Virus record (IMG/VR): IMGVR_UViG_3300023106_000155
Location: 1-54,946 of that record
Origin: a virus
Length of the DNA stretch: 54,946 nt
Strand: one strand, 5' to 3'
Below, one piece after another: positions 3,399-54,946 of this stretch (the stretch's first letter is position 1; every line of letters starts with the position of its first letter). Under the pieces are notes generated by a model. That model did no database searches. It was not told where the DNA came from and saw only the letters and a program-made list of their open reading frames with translations. The translations under genes and the position numbers were made by a program.

Positions 3399-4658
3399 CT
3401 ATCTGCAATTGACAACAATCAGATCGCTCCAGCGTGTAGTATAGGACGGCGATAATCTTTCACGGCGCATTTTCCATTTTCTTTTCAAGCTTTGGCTTCC
3501 AAGCCTAATTTTGGTGTTTCCGATTTTGCGGTTCAATTTATCGATAACTTTTAAAACGTCTTGGTGTTTTGGATTTTCACCGCCAAATATTTTCATTTGG
3601 TAGCTGTCGGCTGGCGTAATCGTGCTGACAATTACCCCAGCTTTTTTATAGTCGATTCCTTCATAAAAAATCATATCGAGTGCAAGAATTGCCAGGCGGT
3701 TGATTTCAAAGGTTGAATTAGTTGGAAAATCTGTCTTGATTCTTATGTTTCTGTAATACTGCGGCAAATCTTGCCTAAAAGGATTTGACATTAAGAAAAC
3801 ATCAATCGCATTGGTGTGCAGTTTGTCTTTTCGTAATTTTTCTGCAACGGTTCCGGCATAGGTTGAAATCCTTTCCCGCAAATCTTTTTTATCCTTTAGC
3901 ATATTTTCAAAGCTGCGGGTGCATGCGATGTTCTGCTTTGGCTTAATTTCCTCAAAATCGATTGAACTAATTCCCATCAAATCATGTTTGAGGCGAAGTC
4001 CTACTACTGTCATGTTTTTACGAACCCAGTCATCATTCATTTGGCTGAATTTGTAGGCATCTGTAATATTTAACGCCATAAGCCTTTTGGCGTGCTGTCT
4101 TCCAATTCCCCAAACATCGCCAATCTTGGTCCACTTCAAAGCCTTGATTCTTTTTTCATCACTATCGATAACGTATGCATTGCCGGTACGGTCAGGAAAT
4201 TTCTTTGCAATCTTATTTGCAATTTTTGCAAGTGCTTTTGTCGGGGCAATTCCAACAGAAACGGGAATCCCTGTGCATTTCAAAACTCGTTTGTGTATAG
4301 CCTTTCCGTGTTGGTGCAAGTCCCAATTTTCAAAACCTATGAATTTCAGAAAGGCTTCATCGATGGAATAAACTTCCAAATCGGGTGTGAATTCTGCAAG
4401 CGTGGACATTACACGCTTTGACATATCGCCATAAAGCGCATAATTGGAAGAAAACACGTGAACATTGTTTTTTTCAAAAACATCTTTAAACTGGTGCGCC
4501 GGAGCGCCCATCGGACAAAAAGGCTTGCACTCATTTGAACGTGCAATAACACATCCGTCATTGTTTGACAGTATGGCGATTGGCTTTCCATTAAGCGATG
4601 GATCAAACACACGCTGGCAGGAAGCATAAAAATTATTACAATCTACAAGGCCAAACAT
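3399..4658 (-). CDS. umuC: Y-family translesion DNA polymerase (UmuC-like)
   Basis: Protein of 419 aa. The N-terminal catalytic core opens with FGLVDCNNFYASCQ (metal-binding Asp6), and the YSIDEAF motif near residue 100 supplies the second carboxylate pair. Helix-hairpin-helix and little-finger regions follow (WGIGRQHAKRL). Length and sequence fit UmuC subunits of polymerase V. I use ATG 4658 rather than the GTG one codon earlier, because this ATG overlaps the umuD stop by one base (TGATG), implying coupled translation with its partner. Expected role: error-prone bypass of lesions during phage or host SOS. Confidence 0.93.
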   Translation of the reverse strand: MFGLVDCNNFYASCQRVFDPSLNGKPIAILSNNDGCVIARSNECKPFCPMGAPAHQFKDVFEKNNVHVFSSNYALYGDMSKRVMSTLAEFTPDLEVYSIDEAFLKFIGFENWDLHQHGKAIHKRVLKCTGIPVSVGIAPTKALAKIANKIAKKFPDRTGNAYVIDSDEKRIKALKWTKIGDVWGIGRQHAKRLMALNITDAYKFSQMNDDWVRKNMTVVGLRLKHDLMGISSIDFEEIKPKQNIACTRSFENMLKDKKDLRERISTYAGTVAEKLRKDKLHTNAIDVFLMSNPFRQDLPQYYRNIRIKTDFPTNSTFEINRLAILALDMIFYEGIDYKKAGVIVSTITPADSYQMKIFGGENPKHQDVLKVIDKLNRKIGNTKIRLGSQSLKRKWKMRRERLSPSYTTRWSDLIVVNCR

Positions 4659-5110
4659 CACCTGAAGGATTTAATGACGTTGATCACAATTCCCCAGATA
4701 AGAAGTTCATTTTCAGAGGTAACTTTTATAGGAGCATAAGCCTCATTTTCGGCAACCAACCAAACTATATCTTTTTCAATCAGAATTGTCTTAACGGTAA
4801 ATTCTCCGTCCAAATAACAGACAGCAATATCTCCATTTTTCGGCTCAAGTGATTTGTCTATGACCATGATATCGCCATTGCAGATGCCTACGTCTTTCAT
4901 CGAGTTGCCTTTGACTTTGGCGTAAAAAGTTGCGCTGGGATGCTTGATGAAAGTTGCATTGAAATCTAGTTCATTTTCAAGGAAGTCATCAGCAGGAGAA
5001 GGAAAACCAGCTGAAACACCGCCATCAAAAAAAGGAAGGCTCAGTGCAGTCCCTGTATTTGCTGTAAAAAACTCTAAAGTTTCGCTGTCGTGCAATCTGA
5101 TCACTTTCAT
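4658..5110 (-). CDS. umuD: UmuD-like S24 peptidase, partner of the Y-family polymerase
   Basis: Protein of 150 aa with a self-cleavage site A34-G35 (VSAGFPSP), catalytic Ser70 (KGNSMKD) and Lys107 (FTVKTI). There is no HTH domain, so it is UmuD-like rather than LexA-like. In the family, RecA filaments stimulate self-cleavage to UmuD', which then activates UmuC. It is first in the operon and directly upstream of umuC. A -7-like element (TAGCTTTG on the minus strand, 5132-5139) lies 22 bases upstream of the start. Confidence 0.93.
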   Translation of the reverse strand: MKVIRLHDSETLEFFTANTGTALSLPFFDGGVSAGFPSPADDFLENELDFNATFIKHPSATFYAKVKGNSMKDVGICNGDIMVIDKSLEPKNGDIAVCYLDGEFTVKTILIEKDIVWLVAENEAYAPIKVTSENELLIWGIVINVIKSFR

Positions 5111-5131
5111 AGTTCTGCATTTTATGGACTA

Positions 5132-5202
5132 CAAAGCTATGACTGAATTTTATAAATTAAATATTAAAGTTTTCAGATTAACATTTGATGTAAGATTGTA
5201 CA
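5132..5202 (-). promoter_or_regulatory. Probable promoter of the umuDC-SRAP operon with a possible operator
   Basis: On the minus strand, TAGCTTTG at 5139-5132 matches the Bacteroidota -7 consensus TAnnTTTG. The -33 region is poor. Further upstream, TGTAAGATTGTACA (5189-5202) has TGTA/TACA arms around a 6-nt centre and could be an SOS-type or other operator. No second copy was found in the window, so the operator is a guess. Confidence 0.4.
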
Positions 5203-5210
5203 CATAAAAA

Positions 5211-5230
5211 AAGCGCCGAGATTGGCGCTT
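5211..5230 (-). terminator. Terminator of the 47-aa and HTH gene unit
   Basis: Perfect 7-bp stem AAGCGCC / GGCGCTT with a 6-nt loop. On the minus strand it is followed by a T-run (A-run at 5206-5212 on the + strand). It begins at the stop codon of the 47-aa gene and insulates it from umuD. Confidence 0.8.
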
Positions 5231-5372
5231 AAATATTTATAAATTCACTAGATGGAGCATAATATTCCCGTCCATCATCTAATTTTATTATTGTAGTTAA
5301 TGGCCTTCCTGTAGGCTGAACTTCTTTTACGAAAACACCTTGGTGTCCTGTCAATTTATGTTTTAGTCTCAT
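5229..5372 (-). CDS. Small hypothetical protein (47 aa)
   Basis: Reads MRLKHKLTGHQGVFVKEV..., rich in strands, with a Gly/Arg/Tyr-rich C-terminal half (DDGREYYAPSSEF). Its start overlaps the 3' end of the upstream HTH gene by 17 bases, and a strong terminator begins at its stop codon. Both points argue that it is a real coding unit. The short basic N-terminus followed by a beta-like segment suggests a small SH3/KOW-like nucleic-acid-binding fold, but this is inference only. Confidence 0.6.
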   Translation of the reverse strand: MRLKHKLTGHQGVFVKEVQPTGRPLTTIIKLDDGREYYAPSSEFINI

Positions 5373-5562
5373 ATTCTTTTGCTTTATTAAAAATAAAACT
5401 TTTTAGATCATCTAGATTCTTTTGATTGAACGTATGCCTTTCGGAATTGTCATTTTTCTTATTCCTGAATGTTGCATAAGTCACACCCATAGCCTCAGCA
5501 GCTTTAATTCCAGACATTCCAAAAGCATCCAATATTTTAAGTATTTCTTCTTTTGGTTCCAT
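5356..5562 (-). CDS. Small helix-turn-helix protein
   Basis: Protein of 68 aa with a helix-turn-helix-like segment, ILDAFGMSGIKAAEAMGVTYATFR: a typical A-x-x-M-G-V turn followed by a recognition helix with Thr/Arg/Asn. The tail (NLDDLKSFIFNKAKEYE) may be a dimerisation helix. It could be a Cro-like or accessory transcriptional regulator, and is one of few candidates for a protein binding the operator palindromes described here. It overlaps the following 47-aa gene. Confidence 0.7.
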   Translation of the reverse strand: MEPKEEILKILDAFGMSGIKAAEAMGVTYATFRNKKNDNSERHTFNQKNLDDLKSFIFNKAKEYETKT

Positions 5563-10326: not shown

Positions 10327-10367
10327 CAAATGTAATAAATAATTCGTTATTTAGAATCGTTCTAAAT
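10327..10367 (-). promoter_or_regulatory. Class B phage promoter upstream of the tail-fibre/lysis operon
   Basis: Minus-strand -7 element TACATTTG (10334-10327). The palindrome ATTTAGAATCGTTCTAAAT (10349-10367) covers the -33 position. It starts exactly 22 bases from the -7 start, as in the copy upstream of the scaffold gene (24541-24581). There is no gene upstream on this strand that would need a terminator, so the palindrome is more likely a protein-binding site. Confidence 0.7.
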
Positions 10368-10373
10368 TATTAT

Positions 10374-10395
10374 GTAACTTATTTAGTTATTTTTG
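10374..10395 (+). promoter_or_regulatory. Class A palindrome overlapping a + strand -7 element
   Basis: GTAACTTATTTAGTTAT (10374-10390) is one base different from the copy at 29114-29130. Its last three bases start the -7 element TATTTTTG (10388-10395), the same overlap as between the copy at 28105-28121 and its -7 element. The element is only 5 bases from the ATG of the + strand gene. Confidence 0.65.
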
Positions 10396-10399
10396 CTGT

Positions 10400-10645
10400 A
10401 TGGAATTCTTAGGATTATTATTTTTTGTATGTGTTGGCGGTGGATGGCTTTTTGGCAAATTAGCTGGAAATGTACTATTCCCAAAAAAGAAGGATCCTTT
10501 GGCTGACTTCCTAAAAAATTACAAAGAGCCTCCGGTGATAAATAATCATTATCACACGCATATTCATCATCATCAAAATTTGACAATCATTGATGATGAG
10601 ACAAAGAAGAAAGTATTGGAGTTGAACAATAAAAAAGCCACTTAA
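10400..10645 (+). CDS. Small membrane protein, possibly translated from a leaderless mRNA
   Basis: Protein of 81 aa with one N-terminal hydrophobic helix (FLGLLFFVCVGGGWLFGKLAGNVLF). A basic, then polar, tail follows with a His-rich stretch (NHYHTHIHHHQN) that could bind metal. It is the only + strand gene in the structural block. The predicted -7 element ends 5 bases before the ATG, so transcription could start at or next to the start codon. A terminator overlaps the stop codon. Function unknown; superinfection or late accessory roles are only guesses. Confidence 0.68.
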   Translation: MEFLGLLFFVCVGGGWLFGKLAGNVLFPKKKDPLADFLKNYKEPPVINNHYHTHIHHHQNLTIIDDETKKKVLELNNKKAT

Positions 10646-24540: not shown

Positions 24541-24591
24541 CAAATGTAAATAAAAAATCCTTATTTAGAATCATTCTAAATAAGGATTTTT
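24541..24591 (-). promoter_or_regulatory. Class B phage promoter upstream of the scaffold/capsid operon
   Basis: Minus-strand -7 element TACATTTG (24548-24541). The core palindrome ATTTAGAATCATTCTAAAT is at 24563-24581, placed as in the copy at 10349-10367. Here it is extended to a perfect 39-bp palindrome (24553-24591) with a T-rich end, so it could also act as a terminator for the portal transcript. A dual role is possible. Confidence 0.7.
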
Positions 24592-24612: not shown

Positions 24613-26019
24613 TTATTCTATTGGTTTTGTAACTTCAACATCTCCAATTCGTTCAATTTCCAAATCTGAATCATCTGTCAAGTCAAGAATATCAACTGCA
24701 GCTTCTTTAGATATAATTTTTGCATTTACTCCAGATGCTAAAGTTTCAACTGTAGTTTTCAAATCATCAGGAAGGATTGAATTAAATTGAATTGAAAAAA
24801 GCAGATCAGATATATCTTTTTTATATTTAATAGCAGTTGTGTTTATGGTTCCGCTGGTCAAAATATTAAGCATTCTCTCAATAATAGTTCTATTTTCACC
24901 TTCATTCAATTTTGCTTTCAAAATTGCATCAAGAAACATCAGCTTCAAAGCAACTCCAGAAACGTTTCCTAAACCTTTTAGGTTATCAAAAGATAAATTA
25001 GGTGTTTGACTTAATGAATAAATAAAATCTTCCAATTTATCTAATTCTAATTTAGAACTTTCCGGCGCATTTGAATTAATTAAATATTCTGCATCACCAT
25101 GGACAACTCCACCTTGGCCATCTCTCTTTTCCTTCATTGGAAAGTGCAAAGCTTTTCCATCATCTTCAGGATCAGGGGCTGAAAGTATTTCACCATACAA
25201 TTTAATTATAGGATGAGCAGTTCTGTCATTTGAACCTCCTAATTTAGACATTGAAACTTCTAATCTATCAATCATGCTTTGAACACCCCACCATTCCGGA
25301 TAATCTTGTGACATATAAACAACTGGAATTCTATCAAAACCATGATCATCTATAGTATCAAGTCCCATAATATTATTTTGATCAGACATCTTATAAATTT
25401 TAGTACTGTCATAAATCCATATATGATTCACCGTTTTTGCAACCCCTTTTTCAGCGAATTCCCACATGAAAAGTATCATATCTCCCATTGAATCGAAATA
25501 AGGATAAAATTTCCCTTTTGATTGTTCAAGTACTCGCGATTTAATTTCTTTATTTTTATTCACTCCAAGCAATCTATTAATTAGCGTGTTCGGTTTTAGA
25601 TTATTTATATAAAAAAGGATCGCGGATTCGGTTTCGCTTTTCTGGGTTTCTTTTAGTGCCTGCAGTTTGCTGTCAAGCCTGTTTGTTTTCCATAATCTAA
25701 GAACTTCATCAGATAAATCGTCTTTTTTAACTGCAGATATTGTAACGGGTTCTCCAACCTCAAAGCCTGTTGATACTGTTACAATTCTATTCTGAAATGG
25801 AACTTGTATTCTTATTGCACGAACTAATTTATAAGATTCACCTTCACCAATAGGCTTGTCTTTTTGTATTTTCCCAATTTGAGAATCTCTTGACTTTCTG
25901 TCAAGATTCTTATATTCATTTCTCAATTTGTCAATTTCTCCCTTATCCTTCGAAGTGGTTTTGATGAATTCAATCGCTTTTTTAGTATCCGTTTTTAGTA
26001 ATTCGATTATATCTTCCAT
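24613..26019 (-). CDS. Portal protein (SPP1 gp6-like)
   Basis: Protein of 468 aa, a normal length for SPP1-type portals. Recognisable opening: a helical N-terminus, then IRIQVPFQNRIVTVSTGFEVGEPVTI. Later blocks include IWIYDSTKIYKM and LSQTPNLSFDNLKGLGNVSGVALKLMFLDAILKA, typical of the portal C-terminal region. It follows the large terminase with 10 bases between. It would form the dodecameric DNA channel at the capsid vertex. Confidence 0.92.
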   Translation of the reverse strand: MEDIIELLKTDTKKAIEFIKTTSKDKGEIDKLRNEYKNLDRKSRDSQIGKIQKDKPIGEGESYKLVRAIRIQVPFQNRIVTVSTGFEVGEPVTISAVKKDDLSDEVLRLWKTNRLDSKLQALKETQKSETESAILFYINNLKPNTLINRLLGVNKNKEIKSRVLEQSKGKFYPYFDSMGDMILFMWEFAEKGVAKTVNHIWIYDSTKIYKMSDQNNIMGLDTIDDHGFDRIPVVYMSQDYPEWWGVQSMIDRLEVSMSKLGGSNDRTAHPIIKLYGEILSAPDPEDDGKALHFPMKEKRDGQGGVVHGDAEYLINSNAPESSKLELDKLEDFIYSLSQTPNLSFDNLKGLGNVSGVALKLMFLDAILKAKLNEGENRTIIERMLNILTSGTINTTAIKYKKDISDLLFSIQFNSILPDDLKTTVETLASGVNAKIISKEAAVDILDLTDDSDLEIERIGDVEVTKPIE

Positions 26020-26029
26020 AGTAAAATAG

Positions 26030-27499
26030 TTAAAAGTTTATACCCAATTTTGTTAATGATTTTTCAGTTTTATAAATGAGCTCAGGATTATTGTGAGCAA
26101 TATGACCATATCGTGCACTATCCCAAATGTGATTCCATTTATCAATTGGCTGGTTAATAGCAATTCCATTTATCTCTTTCATTTTATAATTCTGTTGTTC
26201 TTTCAGAGCTTGCTTGTATAGATGATTTTTCACAATATGAATCTTCTTTTTTTTCATTGAGGTAAGCCAGAACATCACAGATTTAGTTTTGCTGATTTTG
26301 TAAGCATTTACCCAACCCAGTTCATTTAATCCCCTTACCATTTCAACAGTTCCCTTATTCTCACCAGTATATTTATCTGCAGAATCACATGGAATTATGT
26401 CGTATTTTTTATCTAGGCCTAAAGTTTCGAATAAAAGAGAAAGATCTTCTGGATTTTCAATAGGTTCATAGCATAAGGGCTCAATCCAAATGTTGTAATC
26501 ATCTTCTGCGTATTTTGTTAGAGTATTAGGATCAACAGTAAATCCGAAATCATTCGGATAAATAGCTGCTTTATCTTGAGGAAAGCTGTCAATCCATTCA
26601 ACGATTGGAAAAATAATTCCTTTCATTGCTCCTCTCAGGCCTAAGCCGTAAATCTTCCAGTAGCTTTCATCAGCCGTCCCATTTTTTACATTTTCCGGAT
26701 GCGGAGGTGGCTGATTGGTAGGACTTATCTGCTCAACTTTTTGTGTGCGCTTATTATAGCACATCACAACATTGTTTTTAACGATATAAGAACCTGGAAG
26801 CCACGGCTCGGTTATTAATATTTCATTTCTTTCTTGAACCGATATGTGCTTATTGTCATGAAAAGTTGTGCGAAGAAAAGCTACATCTGGACGCGTTAGC
26901 ACGCTGTCAAAAAACCAGTGTTCAGTTACACTTGGGTTATAATCGGCCCACCAGAACTTACGGCAACGCATTTTAACTTGATCGAAAACAGACTTTTTTA
27001 TGAACATCACCTCGTTAAAGAAAGCATAATCACAACCTCCCCCATGCTTACCATCTCCAAGGAAAACTATTTTACTTTTACCAATCTTAAAGCTTTTAAT
27101 CTCATCATTATCCTTGAATTTATTTGGCAAACCAAAATCATCAAGTCGCCGTTTAAAATCATCGTAAAGTGTAGTTTTGAATTCGTTGTAAGTTTCTCTG
27201 TAAATATTTATTGTACAACCATTGACCTCAACAAAAAGGCAAAGCCAGATAATAATATCGATACCGCTCCAAGTTTTTCCAGATCTTGAAGAACCTTCAA
27301 GCCCTGCTCCACGAAATCCAGAAACCAATTCTAACTTGCCATCGACTAGTGCATATTTTTGTTCTTTTATGGAGTTGTAAAGAAGTTTATAATTTAGATT
27401 AGTATCTTCATCGATGATTTGAAGCTTCTTTTGAGCCATATCGATTTCCCTTTCTTTCAAAAGGTTTTCGAGTTCAGTCATTTCAGCATCTGTCAACAT
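26030..27499 (-). CDS. terL: Terminase large subunit
   Basis: Protein of 489 aa. ATPase: Walker A GSSRSGKTWS near residue 70; Walker B and catalytic Glu in CDYAFFNEVMF near residue 160. Nuclease: DFGFTVDPNT near residue 320 and CDSADKY near residue 375 supply the acidic residues of the RNase H-like fold. It resembles PBSX-type terminases. It packages DNA through the portal encoded next, after binding of the small subunit encoded at 28627-29064. Confidence 0.96.
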   Translation of the reverse strand: MLTDAEMTELENLLKEREIDMAQKKLQIIDEDTNLNYKLLYNSIKEQKYALVDGKLELVSGFRGAGLEGSSRSGKTWSGIDIIIWLCLFVEVNGCTINIYRETYNEFKTTLYDDFKRRLDDFGLPNKFKDNDEIKSFKIGKSKIVFLGDGKHGGGCDYAFFNEVMFIKKSVFDQVKMRCRKFWWADYNPSVTEHWFFDSVLTRPDVAFLRTTFHDNKHISVQERNEILITEPWLPGSYIVKNNVVMCYNKRTQKVEQISPTNQPPPHPENVKNGTADESYWKIYGLGLRGAMKGIIFPIVEWIDSFPQDKAAIYPNDFGFTVDPNTLTKYAEDDYNIWIEPLCYEPIENPEDLSLLFETLGLDKKYDIIPCDSADKYTGENKGTVEMVRGLNELGWVNAYKISKTKSVMFWLTSMKKKKIHIVKNHLYKQALKEQQNYKMKEINGIAINQPIDKWNHIWDSARYGHIAHNNPELIYKTEKSLTKLGINF

Positions 27500-27635: not shown

Positions 27636-27917
27636 TCATTTACATCTTGCACATCCGATTTCAAAAACATCACCCCCTTTTAATTCAATATTGAAATTAT
27701 CGCCTTGAGTATTTTCGGCGAAATCAAGCATTGCATAACCGATTAACTCCGCGTCAACGGATTCAACTCCACCGACATATATTCTTCCGTCTTTTATTTC
27801 AAGGTCCATACTTCCAGCATTATTTAAAACTGCATCCATAAGTTTAAGATTATTGAATTGAAAAGCTGAAGCATAGGTTAATCTGTTTTTTATAATTACT
27901 ATAATGGCGATATTCAT
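27636..27917 (-). CDS. Hypothetical protein (93 aa) at the start of the terminase operon
   Basis: Protein of 93 aa. The N-terminus is hydrophobic (NIAIIVIIK), followed by a soluble, acidic part and a C-terminal CARCK motif that might bind metal. It is the first gene behind the class A promoter at 28100-28141 and is closely followed by the 41-aa gene and terL. Not recognised. Confidence 0.65.
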   Translation of the reverse strand: MNIAIIVIIKNRLTYASAFQFNNLKLMDAVLNNAGSMDLEIKDGRIYVGGVESVDAELIGYAMLDFAENTQGDNFNIELKGGDVFEIGCARCK

Positions 27918-28099: not shown

Positions 28100-28141
28100 C
28101 AAAGATAACTTTTTTAGTTATTTGATAACTTTTTTAGTTAT
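28100..28141 (-). promoter_or_regulatory. Class A promoter with tandem palindromes, terminase operon
   Basis: Minus-strand -7 element TATCTTTG (28107-28100). Two identical copies of ATAACTTTTTTAGTTAT lie at 28105-28121 and 28125-28141, with a period of 20 bp, about two helical turns. The first overlaps the -7 element, the second covers the -33 position 19 bases upstream. Compare 29089-29130, where only the upstream copy is present. Confidence 0.75.
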
Positions 28142-28169
28142 TATTTTTCATTAGATAAAAGCATAAAAA

Positions 28170-28199
28170 AACCCCTTAATCTATTTTGATTAAGGGGTT
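28170..28199 (-). terminator. Terminator after the small-terminase unit
   Basis: Perfect 12-bp stem AACCCCTTAATC / GATTAAGGGGTT with a 6-nt loop and a T-run on the minus strand (+ A-run 28164-28171). It ends the transcript that carries terS and the 104-aa gene, before the class A promoter of the terminase operon. Confidence 0.9.
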
Positions 28200-28220
28200 G
28201 AAATTTTAATTTATTAATTA

Positions 28221-28535
28221 TTAAACCGATTTCGGATTAGTTTTATCATTTAGATAAAAATTAATAAATGTCTTTTGATTAGTTGATGCAGAAGCAAAAC
28301 TGATTTTTCTAGTGAGTTTAGTACCATCATTTTTTATAACAATATAATCGATGTCAGCCTCATATCCATGGGATTCAAAAACGGATACAAGGGTTTCCAA
28401 AGCTTGCGGATTCTCTTGACCTATCTCCACAAATGTTGGATCATTGTTTTCAAATCTATTAAAATTGAATCTGAAGGGATCTTTGATTTTTAAATCATCT
28501 AATTGCGGGTTTGAAAATTTTAATAGATGTTGCAT
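28221..28535 (-). CDS. Hypothetical protein (104 aa) between terS and terL
   Basis: Protein of 104 aa from ATG 28535 (MQHLLKFSNPQLDDLKIKDPF...); a longer in-frame start at 28586 would add a hydrophobic stretch without clear initiation. It has alternating strands and helices (TLVSVFESHGYEADIDYIVIKNDG), predicted soluble. It shares the small terminase transcript and is followed by a strong terminator. Not recognised. Confidence 0.65.
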   Translation of the reverse strand: MQHLLKFSNPQLDDLKIKDPFRFNFNRFENNDPTFVEIGQENPQALETLVSVFESHGYEADIDYIVIKNDGTKLTRKISFASASTNQKTFINFYLNDKTNPKSV

Positions 28536-28626
28536 GTATTTATGTTTTTGATTAGTGATAAATATAATAAAATATACCATTTGCAAAACTTTGCTAAGTA
28601 TATTTTTATATTAATTAAAAACAGTA

Positions 28627-29064
28627 TTATCCAGAAGTAGCTTTCCTGATCAATTCTGCAATTCTTGCTTCGCGCTCATCGGAGTTGGTAACGACAATTG
28701 GCGCGTCTGGATCTCCTTTAATGACATGTGTTTTATCTGGAATAATACCTTCAAGTTTGTCGATATGTTTGTCATAAGCCAAAAGTACCCGAAGTCCTTG
28801 AGGAGTTTTTTGATACTTTTCTTCCATCAAAGTCATTCTACGTTTAAGGACATCGACTTTCATATTCCTTTTCTTTTCAATCTCTAACTGTACTCCTTCA
28901 TACCAGAGGTCAAAAGCTTTCTTAAGAAGGTTCTTTGCTTGACGGCGTCCAACGCCATATAAATCAATGATTTCCTTCATAATCAAATAGTCAGCTTTGC
29001 CCTCGATAATCCACTTCTGGATTTCAAAGACGCGTCTTTCAGTTTCTAATTTAGTGGATTTCAT
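28627..29064 (-). CDS. terS: Terminase small subunit-like protein
   Basis: Protein of 145 aa. An N-terminal helix-turn-helix (IIDLYGVGRRQAKNLLKKAFDLW) is followed by a coiled coil (VLKRRMTLMEEKYQKTPQGLRVLLAYDKHIDKLEGI) and a basic tail, as in phage small terminases that bind the packaging site. It is upstream of terL in the same orientation but separated by a terminator and a second promoter. The class A promoter lies directly upstream (29089-29130). Confidence 0.75.
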   Translation of the reverse strand: MKSTKLETERRVFEIQKWIIEGKADYLIMKEIIDLYGVGRRQAKNLLKKAFDLWYEGVQLEIEKKRNMKVDVLKRRMTLMEEKYQKTPQGLRVLLAYDKHIDKLEGIIPDKTHVIKGDPDAPIVVTNSDEREARIAELIRKATSG

Positions 29065-29088
29065 TTTTTATTTGGAATTATAATGAAA

Positions 29089-29130
29089 CAAAAGTAACCA
29101 AAATAATTATATAGTAACTTTTTTAGTTAT
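29089..29130 (-). promoter_or_regulatory. Class A promoter of the small terminase gene
   Basis: Minus-strand -7 element TACTTTTG (29096-29089). GTAACTTTTTTAGTTAT at 29114-29130 covers the -33 position, and the AACT of the palindrome begins exactly 19 bases beyond the -7 element, as in the terminase operon promoter. No copy overlaps the -7 here. Confidence 0.72.
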
Positions 29131-29145
29131 TATTTAATCAAAAGC

Positions 29146-29176
29146 TTGCACGTTACATTTTTGTAACGTATATTTG
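29146..29176 (+). promoter_or_regulatory. Class C promoter/operator for the 74-aa gene
   Basis: TTGC (29146-29149, -33) and TATATTTG (29169-29176, -7) are separated by 19 bp. The perfect palindrome ACGTTACATTTTTGTAACGT (29150-29169) fills the spacer. A regulator bound here would block RNA polymerase. The same palindrome with one changed central base lies in the promoter at 6312-6342. Confidence 0.78.
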
Positions 29177-29208: not shown

Positions 29209-29433
29209 ATGAAATCTTCAAAATTAAACCTTACAGCAAAGCAATTAAGAGTAATCACATGGATGGATGATGTGACTGGAATGGATAATAAAATTGAAGG
29301 AAATGAATTAGTAATTTTCTACAAAGGGATGCCTACTTACTGGGAACATAGAATCTCAATGGAAGATGTTGCTGAAATTCTTCATGACATTATCAATATT
29401 GAAGATGAGAATTTTTCTTTAGCAAATAACTAA
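29209..29433 (+). CDS. Hypothetical protein (74 aa), divergent from terS
   Basis: Protein of 74 aa (MKSSKLNLTAKQLRVITWMDDVTG...), acidic C-terminus, predicted soluble. The start LTAKQLRVITWMDD is helical, and the rest (ELVIFYKGMPTYWEHRISMEDVAEILHDI) may form a small alpha/beta fold. Expression is probably controlled by the class C operator. It forms a small + strand unit with the next gene inside an otherwise minus-strand phage. Function unknown. Confidence 0.7.
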   Translation: MKSSKLNLTAKQLRVITWMDDVTGMDNKIEGNELVIFYKGMPTYWEHRISMEDVAEILHDIINIEDENFSLANN

Positions 29434-52546: not shown

Positions 52547-52828
52547 CTAGGCTGTTATTTGCTTAAGTCTATTGTAAGTATTTAAAATGCTTTTGTTTTT
52601 TTCAATTTTAGAAATAGACTCATCTGATTTTAATATTGTAAATCTGATAAGGTTTTCAACTGTTGAAAATGAATTTTCGTAGACATTACAACCTCTTAGA
52701 ATATCTCTGATGTTATAAGGAGATACTTTTCCCTCTGCTCGACAGACAACTGCCCAATCTGGAAAATCAGTCATATCTTTTAGTGCATTCCTTAATTCTT
52801 CTGGGAGTGGCTTACCGATATCGAACAT
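52547..52828 (-). CDS. Hypothetical early protein (93 aa), possible DNA-binding regulator
   Basis: Protein of 93 aa (MFDIGKPLPEELRNALKDMTDFPDWAVVCRAEGKVSPYNIRDILRGCNVYENSFSTVENLIRFTILKSDES...). Segments SPYNIRDILRG and FSTVENLIRFTI could be a helix-turn-helix, and a small Cro-like regulator at this place in the early operon would be usual. The assignment is uncertain; the sequence could also be a structural adaptor. Confidence 0.6.
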   Translation of the reverse strand: MFDIGKPLPEELRNALKDMTDFPDWAVVCRAEGKVSPYNIRDILRGCNVYENSFSTVENLIRFTILKSDESISKIEKNKSILNTYNRLKQITA

Positions 52829-53366: not shown

Positions 53367-53391
53367 TTTATAATTATTCTAAATTAATTTT

Positions 53392-54165
53392 ATGGAAAGT
53401 ATCGCAAATCGCGTACAGTCATTGATGGAAGATAAAGGCTTGACAGCATATCAGTTATCTAAAAAGGGCAATATATCAGCAGCAACATTAAGCAGGTTGC
53501 TTAAACAAAATTCCAAACCTAATTCTGAAACTATTTCTAAAATATGCAATTATTTTGAAATTAGTGAGGCTTGGCTTTTGAGTGGCAATGGTGATAAGTA
53601 TATTGATGCATCAAAACTCATAGTTAATGATGCTTATTCTATAGATGTTCATACAAATAGCAATGCAAATCAATTTATTAAACTTCCAAATGGCCAATAT
53701 TTAATGACAATGCCACTCGCAGAATTTAGCATACAGGCTGGCTTACTTGATCATTATCAAGATTTAGAATTCCTAGCAGATATGCAACAGCACAGTATCA
53801 TAGTTGAAAAACCCGTTAAAGGTCGATATATCGCTTTTAGGGTTAAAGGCGATAGCATGGAAGATGGCTCTAATGAATCAATCAGCCAGAATAGTATCGT
53901 ATCTACTAGAGAGCTTAACAGGCAGTATTGGTTAAGCAAACTTAGAACTAAAGACTTTCCATACTGGGTAATTTATACTTCTCAATCAAAGTATCCGCTC
54001 TTGAAAGAAATAACAAATCACGATGTCGAAAACGGAATAATTACTTGTCACTCCTTAAATGATTCTCCAGAGTATGGAGATTTTCCATTATCAATAAATG
54101 ATATCCAGGCTTTATTTTATGTTATAGATGTAAGCAAAACAATATCAAGAAAACTAACTTACTAG
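53392..54165 (+). CDS. CI-like repressor (XRE HTH plus S24 peptidase-like domain)
   Basis: Protein of 257 aa. The N-terminal XRE helix-turn-helix (residues about 5-60) contains LTAYQLSKKGNISAATLSRLLKQNSKPNSETISKICNYF. The C-terminal S24-like domain has a cleavage-like FSIQAGLLD, Ser in VKGDSMEDG and Lys in SKYPLLKEIT. Maintains lysogeny by binding the operators at 53251-53366 and is probably inactivated by RecA-stimulated self-cleavage. Divergent from the early operon. Confidence 0.92.
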   Translation: MESIANRVQSLMEDKGLTAYQLSKKGNISAATLSRLLKQNSKPNSETISKICNYFEISEAWLLSGNGDKYIDASKLIVNDAYSIDVHTNSNANQFIKLPNGQYLMTMPLAEFSIQAGLLDHYQDLEFLADMQQHSIIVEKPVKGRYIAFRVKGDSMEDGSNESISQNSIVSTRELNRQYWLSKLRTKDFPYWVIYTSQSKYPLLKEITNHDVENGIITCHSLNDSPEYGDFPLSINDIQALFYVIDVSKTISRKLTY

Positions 54166-54169
54166 AATT

Positions 54170-54682
54170 ATGAAAAATATTACACAAGCATTAATTTTAT
54201 TAATTTCAACTATTGGATACTCTCAAAAAATAGCTGAGAATAAAATAGATGAATTCACTAAAAGAAAAATCATTCGAACTGAATGGGAGAATGTTTCCGG
54301 TATGACAAATTTATATTTAAGTACTAGAATCAGCAGAATTGATTCAACAAGTTATTTGGATATGAAATTTTTAACACAAACTGTTACATCAATAAGAACA
54401 GATGATGATGTTTTATTTCTATTTACAGATGGTGAAATATCCAATTTGAAAAGCATCAAAAATGCTATTTCTGGATATGGTGATGGAGCAAATGGTTTAG
54501 TCGGTTCAAAAGCTCTTGGGCTATATATTAATTGCAAATTATCAGACAAAGACATTGAGAATTTTAAAAACAAAACTGTTAATAAAGTCAGAATAAATAC
54601 TTCTCAAGGCTATTTGGAAGAAGAGATGAAACCAAAAAAAGCTGAGAAATTAATTAAAATGTTTGAATTGATTTATAAATAA
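54170..54682 (+). CDS. Secreted or periplasmic hypothetical protein, downstream of the repressor
   Basis: Protein of 170 aa with a signal peptide (MKNITQALILLISTIGYSQKIAEN, cleavage near residue 18-20). The rest is soluble with a strand/helix mixture (LYINCKLSDKDIENFKNKTVNKVRINTSQGYLEEEMKPKK). It starts 4 bases after the repressor stop, so it is probably expressed in the lysogen. Candidates: lysogenic conversion or exclusion protein. Not recognised. Confidence 0.68.
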   Translation: MKNITQALILLISTIGYSQKIAENKIDEFTKRKIIRTEWENVSGMTNLYLSTRISRIDSTSYLDMKFLTQTVTSIRTDDDVLFLFTDGEISNLKSIKNAISGYGDGANGLVGSKALGLYINCKLSDKDIENFKNKTVNKVRINTSQGYLEEEMKPKKAEKLIKMFELIYK

Positions 54683-54688
54683 TAGCCA

Positions 54689-54946
54689 ATGAATCCAGAC
54701 AAAAGAATGCTCAGGTTTATTGATCTTCTCATGTTTGAGAAAAAAATTAAATTCAATGCTGATTTTTGCAAAAGCATAGACATGAGAACCCAGACTCTGA
54801 CTAAAATTAGAAATGGAGACCAGCATTTTACATTGCAGCAGGTCCAAAAAGCTTGTGAAGTATACAATCTAAATGCAAATTGGGTATTTGGAATTAAAGA
54901 GAATGTTTATAACACAAAGAATAGCATAAAATTAAAAGATATTTAA
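54689..54946 (+). CDS. HTH domain protein at the right end of the window
   Basis: Protein of 85 aa with a helix-turn-helix pattern (LLMFEKKIKFNADFCKSIDMRTQTLTKIRNGDQHFTLQQVQKACEVYNLNANWVFG) reminiscent of XRE domains, ending exactly at the end of the window with a TAA. It follows the secreted protein gene by 6 bases. It may be a lysogeny regulator or the host gene next to the integration site; the window ends here so this cannot be settled. Confidence 0.65.
   Translation: MNPDKRMLRFIDLLMFEKKIKFNADFCKSIDMRTQTLTKIRNGDQHFTLQQVQKACEVYNLNANWVFGIKENVYNTKNSIKLKDI

Follow-up and report, generated by a model that had tools for sequence, protein, structure and literature searches.

Paired palindromes at the packaging promoters

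The window, the whole 54,946-nucleotide stretch of viral DNA analyzed here, carries its DNA packaging genes on the minus strand in two transcription units. A pair of palindromes at 29.1 kb heads the small-terminase unit, while a second pair at 28.1 kb lies downstream of an apparent terminator (28170-28199) and heads the unit that includes the genes for the large terminase and the portal. The initial annotation had assigned these sites to DNA packaging units, which the genes behind the promoters bear out. These genes, together with the open reading frame (ORF) behind a further site on the plus strand, are as follows:

28627-29064, minus strand: probable terminase small subunit, first gene after the 29.1 kb promoter, in the same place in 54 relatives
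28221-28586, minus strand: protein of 121 aa with no assigned function, in the small-terminase transcription unit
28170-28199, minus strand: apparent terminator (inverted repeat, then a T run on the minus strand) dividing the two packaging units
27636-27917, minus strand: small protein conserved in the phage group, first gene after the 28.1 kb promoter
26030-27499, minus strand: terminase large subunit (TerL)
24613-26019, minus strand: portal protein
10400-10645, plus strand: 81-aa ORF with a hydrophobic N terminus, behind the 10374 site; no family match

Each packaging promoter has two palindromes whose starts are 20 bp apart. The proximal palindrome donates the first two bases (TA) of the -7 box TAnnTTTG, the form of this box in Flavobacterium sigma-A promoters (PMC9723704), and its register relative to the box is equal at 28107, 29096 and, on the plus strand, 10388. 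The predicted operators and boxes are:

29114-29130, minus strand: distal predicted operator GTAACTTTTTTAGTTAT of the small-terminase promoter
29094-29110, minus strand: degenerate proximal predicted operator GTAACCAAAATAATTAT, 20 bp from the distal one
29089-29096, minus strand: -7 box TACTTTTG of the small-terminase promoter
28125-28141, minus strand: distal predicted operator of the terminase/portal promoter, palindrome ATAACTTTTTTAGTTAT, over the -33 region
28105-28121, minus strand: proximal predicted operator, 20 bp from the distal one, sharing TA with the -7 box
28100-28107, minus strand: -7 box TATCTTTG of the terminase/portal promoter, read on the minus strand
10374-10390, plus strand: single predicted operator GTAACTTATTTAGTTAT overlapping a plus-strand -7 box
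10388-10395, plus strand: -7 box TATTTTTG preceding the small ORF 10400-10645

The three copies named in the initial annotation (28105-28121, 28125-28141 and 29114-29130) were confirmed, as was the fourth at 10374-10390. That list, correct in its three positions, overlooked the degenerate copy at 29094, which makes the 29.1 kb promoter tandem as well. The described distance of 19 bases from the -7 box to AACT in the upstream copy holds at both the 28.1 kb and the 29.1 kb promoters, and the 10374 copy overlaps its plus-strand -7 box in the register seen at 28105. Placement in the three units is uniform with respect to this register, but the 10374 site is single, not paired; the slot of a second copy beside it (10350-10366) is filled by an unrelated palindrome, TTTAGAATCGTTCTAAA.

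RTAACTN5AGTTAY is matched exactly four times in the window, whereas 200 second-order Markov shuffles gave 0.0 matches on average. With at most two mismatches allowed, there were 20 matches versus 9.25 expected (shuffle maximum of 17 in 100 shuffles). The sites of the window, four exact and one degenerate, are symmetric and every one of them lies at a promoter.

Other palindromes were observed in the window. One, TTATTTAGAATNATTCTAAATAA, is nearly invariant among phages. Sites of this type lie at 24564-24580 (perfect, head-gene promoter) and 10350-10366 (tail-gene promoter), at a fixed offset from the -7 box, and at 53367-53383, just ahead of the CI start codon; the same three places are occupied in G004, G007, G010 and G012. 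Located in the -33 slot, this palindrome may be where a conserved phage late activator binds, one that would also shut off CI. Its interpretation as a Fur/PerR box was set aside: one form has only 1-3 exact occurrences per host genome, which makes a large host regulon seem unlikely. The divergent plus-strand gene 29209-29433 has a separate palindrome, ACGTTACATTTTTGTAACGT (29150-29169), immediately ahead of its -7 box TATATTTG and overlapping it.

Conservation of the promoter layout in related phages

A search with the TerL protein yielded 75 related viral loci as well as 10 in genomes, most of them Flavobacterium. The consensus search of related phages that the initial annotation had proposed returned the exact TAACT motif in 0 of the 75 loci; the geometry of the sites was therefore compared instead. 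The expected excess upstream of late genes was present in relatives for the paired-site geometry, with other half-site letters. Tandem palindromes of different sequence occupy the same two promoter positions, for example TAACATAATATGTTA-N5-TAATAAAATATATTA in L011. When every TAnnTTTG was scored in the register of the window, and tandem palindromes were counted where 8 or more of the 10 arm positions pair, 57 boxes of TerL-family loci had them, compared to 1 at a control offset of 40 bp. In the region upstream of TerL, a best score of at least 16 was reached in about half of the loci examined versus 0.5% of shuffled regions.

The half-sites fall into classes: TAACA (the commonest), TAATA, GAATA, TATCA/TAGCA, TTGTA, TAAAG (L010), TAGTA (G308) and the TAACT of the window. 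Exact TAACA palindromes start 13 or 33 bases ahead of the -7 box in 15 of 20 cases, and in two loci (L008 and L033) the entire 35 bp forms one large palindrome. Compared at the sequence level, dozens of related Flavobacterium phages share the paired-palindrome layout with differing letters, and the TAACT of the window is best described as a specificity variant of this conserved architecture. Among the loci collected, two contigs with a Flavobacterium-type phage (L090 and L095) are binned as Neisseriaceae and Robiginitomaculum, respectively; binning contamination is likely.

A shared phage or host regulator of late genes had been offered as the simplest explanation for the sites. One regulator is still the simplest reading, but a host origin is disfavored: the half-site letters differ among phages of the same bacterial genus, which points to a phage protein rather than a host regulator.

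A small Cro/C1-type protein at the end of the CI operon

Both helix-turn-helix (HTH) proteins suggested as binders in the initial annotation were discarded. The product of 5356-5562 (phrog_32215) is patchy, being present in only 11 TerL loci, where it heads a cassette of its own behind a different palindrome; the promoter of this gene in relatives has one of the CCTTT-N5-AAAGG type. Neither a Pfam nor a PHROG match was found for 52547-52828, and searches of six relatives gave no homologue. The cassette of the former protein (3399-5562) encodes a phrog_1268 DNA polymerase (probably UmuC-like), an S24 peptidase (UmuD-like) and this 68-aa HTH protein. The HTH gene adjoins the late promoters, behind the CCTTT-N5-AAAGG palindrome, in several relatives and lies at the opposite phage end in the window.

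Judged from sequence and gene context, the best candidate binder of the late palindromes is instead the product of 54689-54946, the last of three genes that are separated by gaps of 4 and 6 bases:

53392-54165, plus strand: CI-type repressor with a Cro/C1 HTH and an S24/LexA-like motif (FRVKGDSM, read by eye), encoded first in the lysogeny operon
54170-54682, plus strand: 170-aa protein with a signal-like N terminus, middle gene of the CI operon
54689-54946, plus strand: 85-aa Cro/C1-type protein, proposed late-promoter repressor; predicted recognition helix at residues 34-41

Equivalents in relatives, likewise encoded last in the CI operon, are Cro/C1-type proteins of 78-94 aa. All 21 phages examined have one or two same-strand genes ahead of the small HTH gene and, preceding these wherever the region is in view, a repressor-type gene; in 17 of the 21, no -7 box occurs within the 400 bases ahead of the small HTH gene. 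Gene order is alike in Riemerella phage RAP44 (CI, gp10, HTH and integrase). The small HTH gene was found in 14 of 400 genus genomes, in keeping with a prophage gene. The genes between CI and HTH (54170-54682 and its equivalents) encode mostly small signal-bearing or lipoprotein-like products that differ among phages, and are candidates for lysogen-expressed traits.

Eleven of 12 small HTH members match the HTH_26 profile at E<=0.1 (best 5e-5); the 85-aa protein of the window matches Pfam HTH_3/HTH_26 at E values of 0.0018-0.0037, under the curated cut-off. Its AlphaFold2 model (pLDDT 92.8) contains helices at residues 3-16, 23-29, 34-41, 49-59 and 63-66, and thus the predicted fold is the helical HTH with recognition helix that defines Cro/C1-type (XRE) regulators. 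A fold search with the model against the PDB gave no match at E<0.001; the neighbors are almost all Cro/C1-type (SinR, 434 Cro and C.Esp1396I), though at E>0.05.

The CI-type repressor 53392-54165, the master repressor that co-occurs with the sites, was considered as the binder of the late operators. No late-type palindrome was found in the CI operon or CI gene of the window, so autoregulation through late-type sites is not supported. The palindromes in the CI region differ from the late sites and do not follow them: G004, G009 and G014 share a CI-region palindrome of the CGAACA-N2-TGTTCG type while the late operators of G004 differ, and late operators are common to G007 and G009, which have different CI-region palindromes. 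CI sequence varies even more among phages than the late half-sites, and the distance between CI N termini did not track the operator (r=0.13, p=0.26, 10 phages). Binding of the late operators by CI itself is, on these grounds, highly improbable.

Presence and co-variation of the protein with the sites

Among TerL-family records and prophages of about 45 kb or longer, operators were present in 16 of 16 with the HTH gene and in 0 of 6 without it (Fisher p=1.3e-5), the HTH-less records being also the more distant relatives. G009 and G014, both of which end just after CI, were left out of this tally. A seeming exception, G008 (IMGVR_UViG_2721755704_000001), has sites but no HTH gene; its operators are single, not tandem, palindromes of TAACATAATATGTTA. 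This record is 100% identical over its full length to the G392 prophage, in which the HTH gene starts 7 bases beyond the point where G008 stops. IMG/VR provirus records are cut at gene ends in G008, G009 and G014, and absence of the gene there is therefore not evidence of absence.

Co-variation was assessed from operator frequency matrices and protein distances with Mantel tests, which only partly remove shared ancestry. HTH distance was correlated with operator distance in the arms (Spearman r=0.59, permutation p=0.0002, 22 phages). TerL distance did not track the operator in the first 20-phage set (r=-0.17, p=0.89). Of 39 protein families tested, small terminase and integrase scored about equal to HTH. 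The small terminase gene adjoins the operators and the integrase gene adjoins the HTH gene, and partial tests on small sets (13 and 14 phages) favored HTH: the HTH correlation was kept given small terminase (0.56, p=0.008) or integrase (0.67, p=0.002), whereas given HTH those of small terminase and integrase had p values of 0.07 and 0.08, respectively. We attribute the co-variation of small terminase and integrase, from these sequence comparisons, to linkage. Autoregulation by the small terminase, itself a DNA-binding protein, through the sites, which its own correlation with the operator (r=0.58, 13 phages) could suggest, is highly improbable: 7 of the 20 phages with operators have no homologue, and its correlation is not significant once HTH is taken into account and is what adjacency would produce.

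At the level of single residues, the per-column test placed positions 34 and 38 among the three that best track the operator (p=0.001 each, the floor of the test), and both fall in the AlphaFold2-predicted recognition helix 34-41. Residue 38 is S in most TAACA phages. It is T in the window (TAACT), in G017 and G280 (TATCA/TAGCA) and in G308 (TAGTA), but also in G020 (TAACA); it is Y or H in phages with a frequent G at the outer base, and N in G018 (TTGTA). G017 and G280, which are separate records, have the common helix QSTITKI(K/N)NGTAHF and both have TATCA/TAGCA half-sites.

Binding of the sites by a host regulator or by some other phage protein is very unlikely. Some HTH-bearing prophages and phages outside the TerL-family group (G241, G096, G161, G139 and RAP44) have no recognizable tandem operator, which would suit this explanation. 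Against it, a single host protein would not permit half-sites to vary within one bacterial genus, and the HTH correlation extends to the predicted recognition helix.

Proposed repression of the packaging promoters in the lysogen

Taking together the geometry of the sites, their -7 register, their conservation, the operon position of the HTH gene, the co-variation of protein and sites, and the predicted fold, we propose that the late palindromes are probably operators of the phage repressor 54689-54946, which would be made from the end of the CI operon and repress the packaging promoters in the lysogen. With the Flavobacterium -7 box extending from -12 to -5 (PMC9723704), the proximal palindrome falls at about -25 to -11 and the distal palindrome at about -45 to -31. 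One dimer would bind each 15-bp palindrome (5-bp arms and a 5-bp center) in the lysogen, so that two dimers would sit 20 bp apart on one helical face of a 35-bp stretch. The distal dimer would cover the -33 region and the proximal dimer the spacer together with the first bases of the -7 box, excluding RNA polymerase from both packaging promoters. At induction, CI would fall and the CI operon stop, the small protein, presumably co-transcribed, would run down and the late promoters would open.

The predicted operators overlap the core promoter elements, the proximal one sharing TA with the -7 box and the distal one covering -33, and such positions fit repression better than activation. The same protein and sites could also act in activation, or in a dual manner like restriction-modification controllers, with the distal dimer recruiting polymerase in place of a weak -33 contact and only filling of the proximal site being repressive. 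TTTG is present at -33 in only 7 of 31 tandem promoters, as this alternative would have it, and the fold search lists the controller C.Esp1396I, whose 35-bp tetramer is a repression complex (PMC3758141). The proximal site, however, takes in the start of the -7 box, and a late activator whose gene shared an operon with the lysogeny repressor would be produced too early; we regard an activating or dual role as unlikely. Repression in the lysogen is the best reading, since the dimers would occlude both core elements and the gene lies in the lysogeny operon.

In the textbook view, late phage genes are silent in a lysogen, with no activator or antiterminator being made. If the proposal is correct, a small repressor co-expressed with CI and acting on the packaging promoters would add a second lock, one with a specificity code of its own. 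A repressor with palindromic operators is of a known kind. In a literature search of papers outside subscription, no description was found of a second small repressor of the CI operon that is dedicated to late packaging promoters and has drifting specificity, nor of a late-gene repressor of this type in Flavobacterium phages. More tentatively, this could be a widespread module of Bacteroidota temperate phages, in which the CI operon would end in a dedicated late-promoter repressor whose specificity evolves apart from that of CI; lysogens might thereby gain a second, late-acting immunity layer that blocks packaging of superinfecting phages with the same operator that escape CI. The half-site classes, paired with regulator sequences, would offer a natural experiment on protein-DNA specificity and cross-immunity in culturable Flavobacterium lysogens, and the paired-palindrome layout a means of locating late promoters and their regulator in unannotated Bacteroidota phages.

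Comparison with known systems

At activator-type late promoters (P2 Ogr and lambda Q), the activator site lies upstream or the antitermination site downstream, and the core promoter is unblocked; the site found here is on the -7 box itself. Lambdoid CI/Cro proteins (434 Cro and SinR-type) resemble the present case in their small Cro/C1-type fold, here predicted, and in tandem palindromes of some 15-17 bp that are spaced by roughly two helical turns. In contrast, the sites here lie at late packaging promoters and not in the immunity region, and the candidate protein is distinct from CI, which the same operon encodes, and has its own specificity.

Mycobacteriophage L5 has 20-30 asymmetric stoperators, mostly off promoters, that are bound by the main repressor (PMC6550527). 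Shared with that system are a lysogeny protein with sites outside the immunity region and a motif that varies among related phages (PMC6550527); unlike stoperators, the sites here are few, symmetric and at promoters, and are assigned to a second protein. Relative to Flavobacterium sigma-A promoters, TTTG at -33 is mostly absent here, with the distal palindrome in its place.

The DNA layout also resembles that of C.Esp1396I, in which two dimers form a cooperative tetrameric repression complex on a 35-bp double operator (PMC3758141). The 35-bp tandem layout is alike, the predicted fold is similar, and the phage protein may assemble on its DNA in a comparable way. No restriction gene was seen beside the small HTH gene in 21 phages, where the neighbors are CI and secreted-type proteins, and no sign of activation was seen here. 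Unlike those of C.Esp1396I, the sites assigned to the phage protein are placed directly on a phage late promoter.
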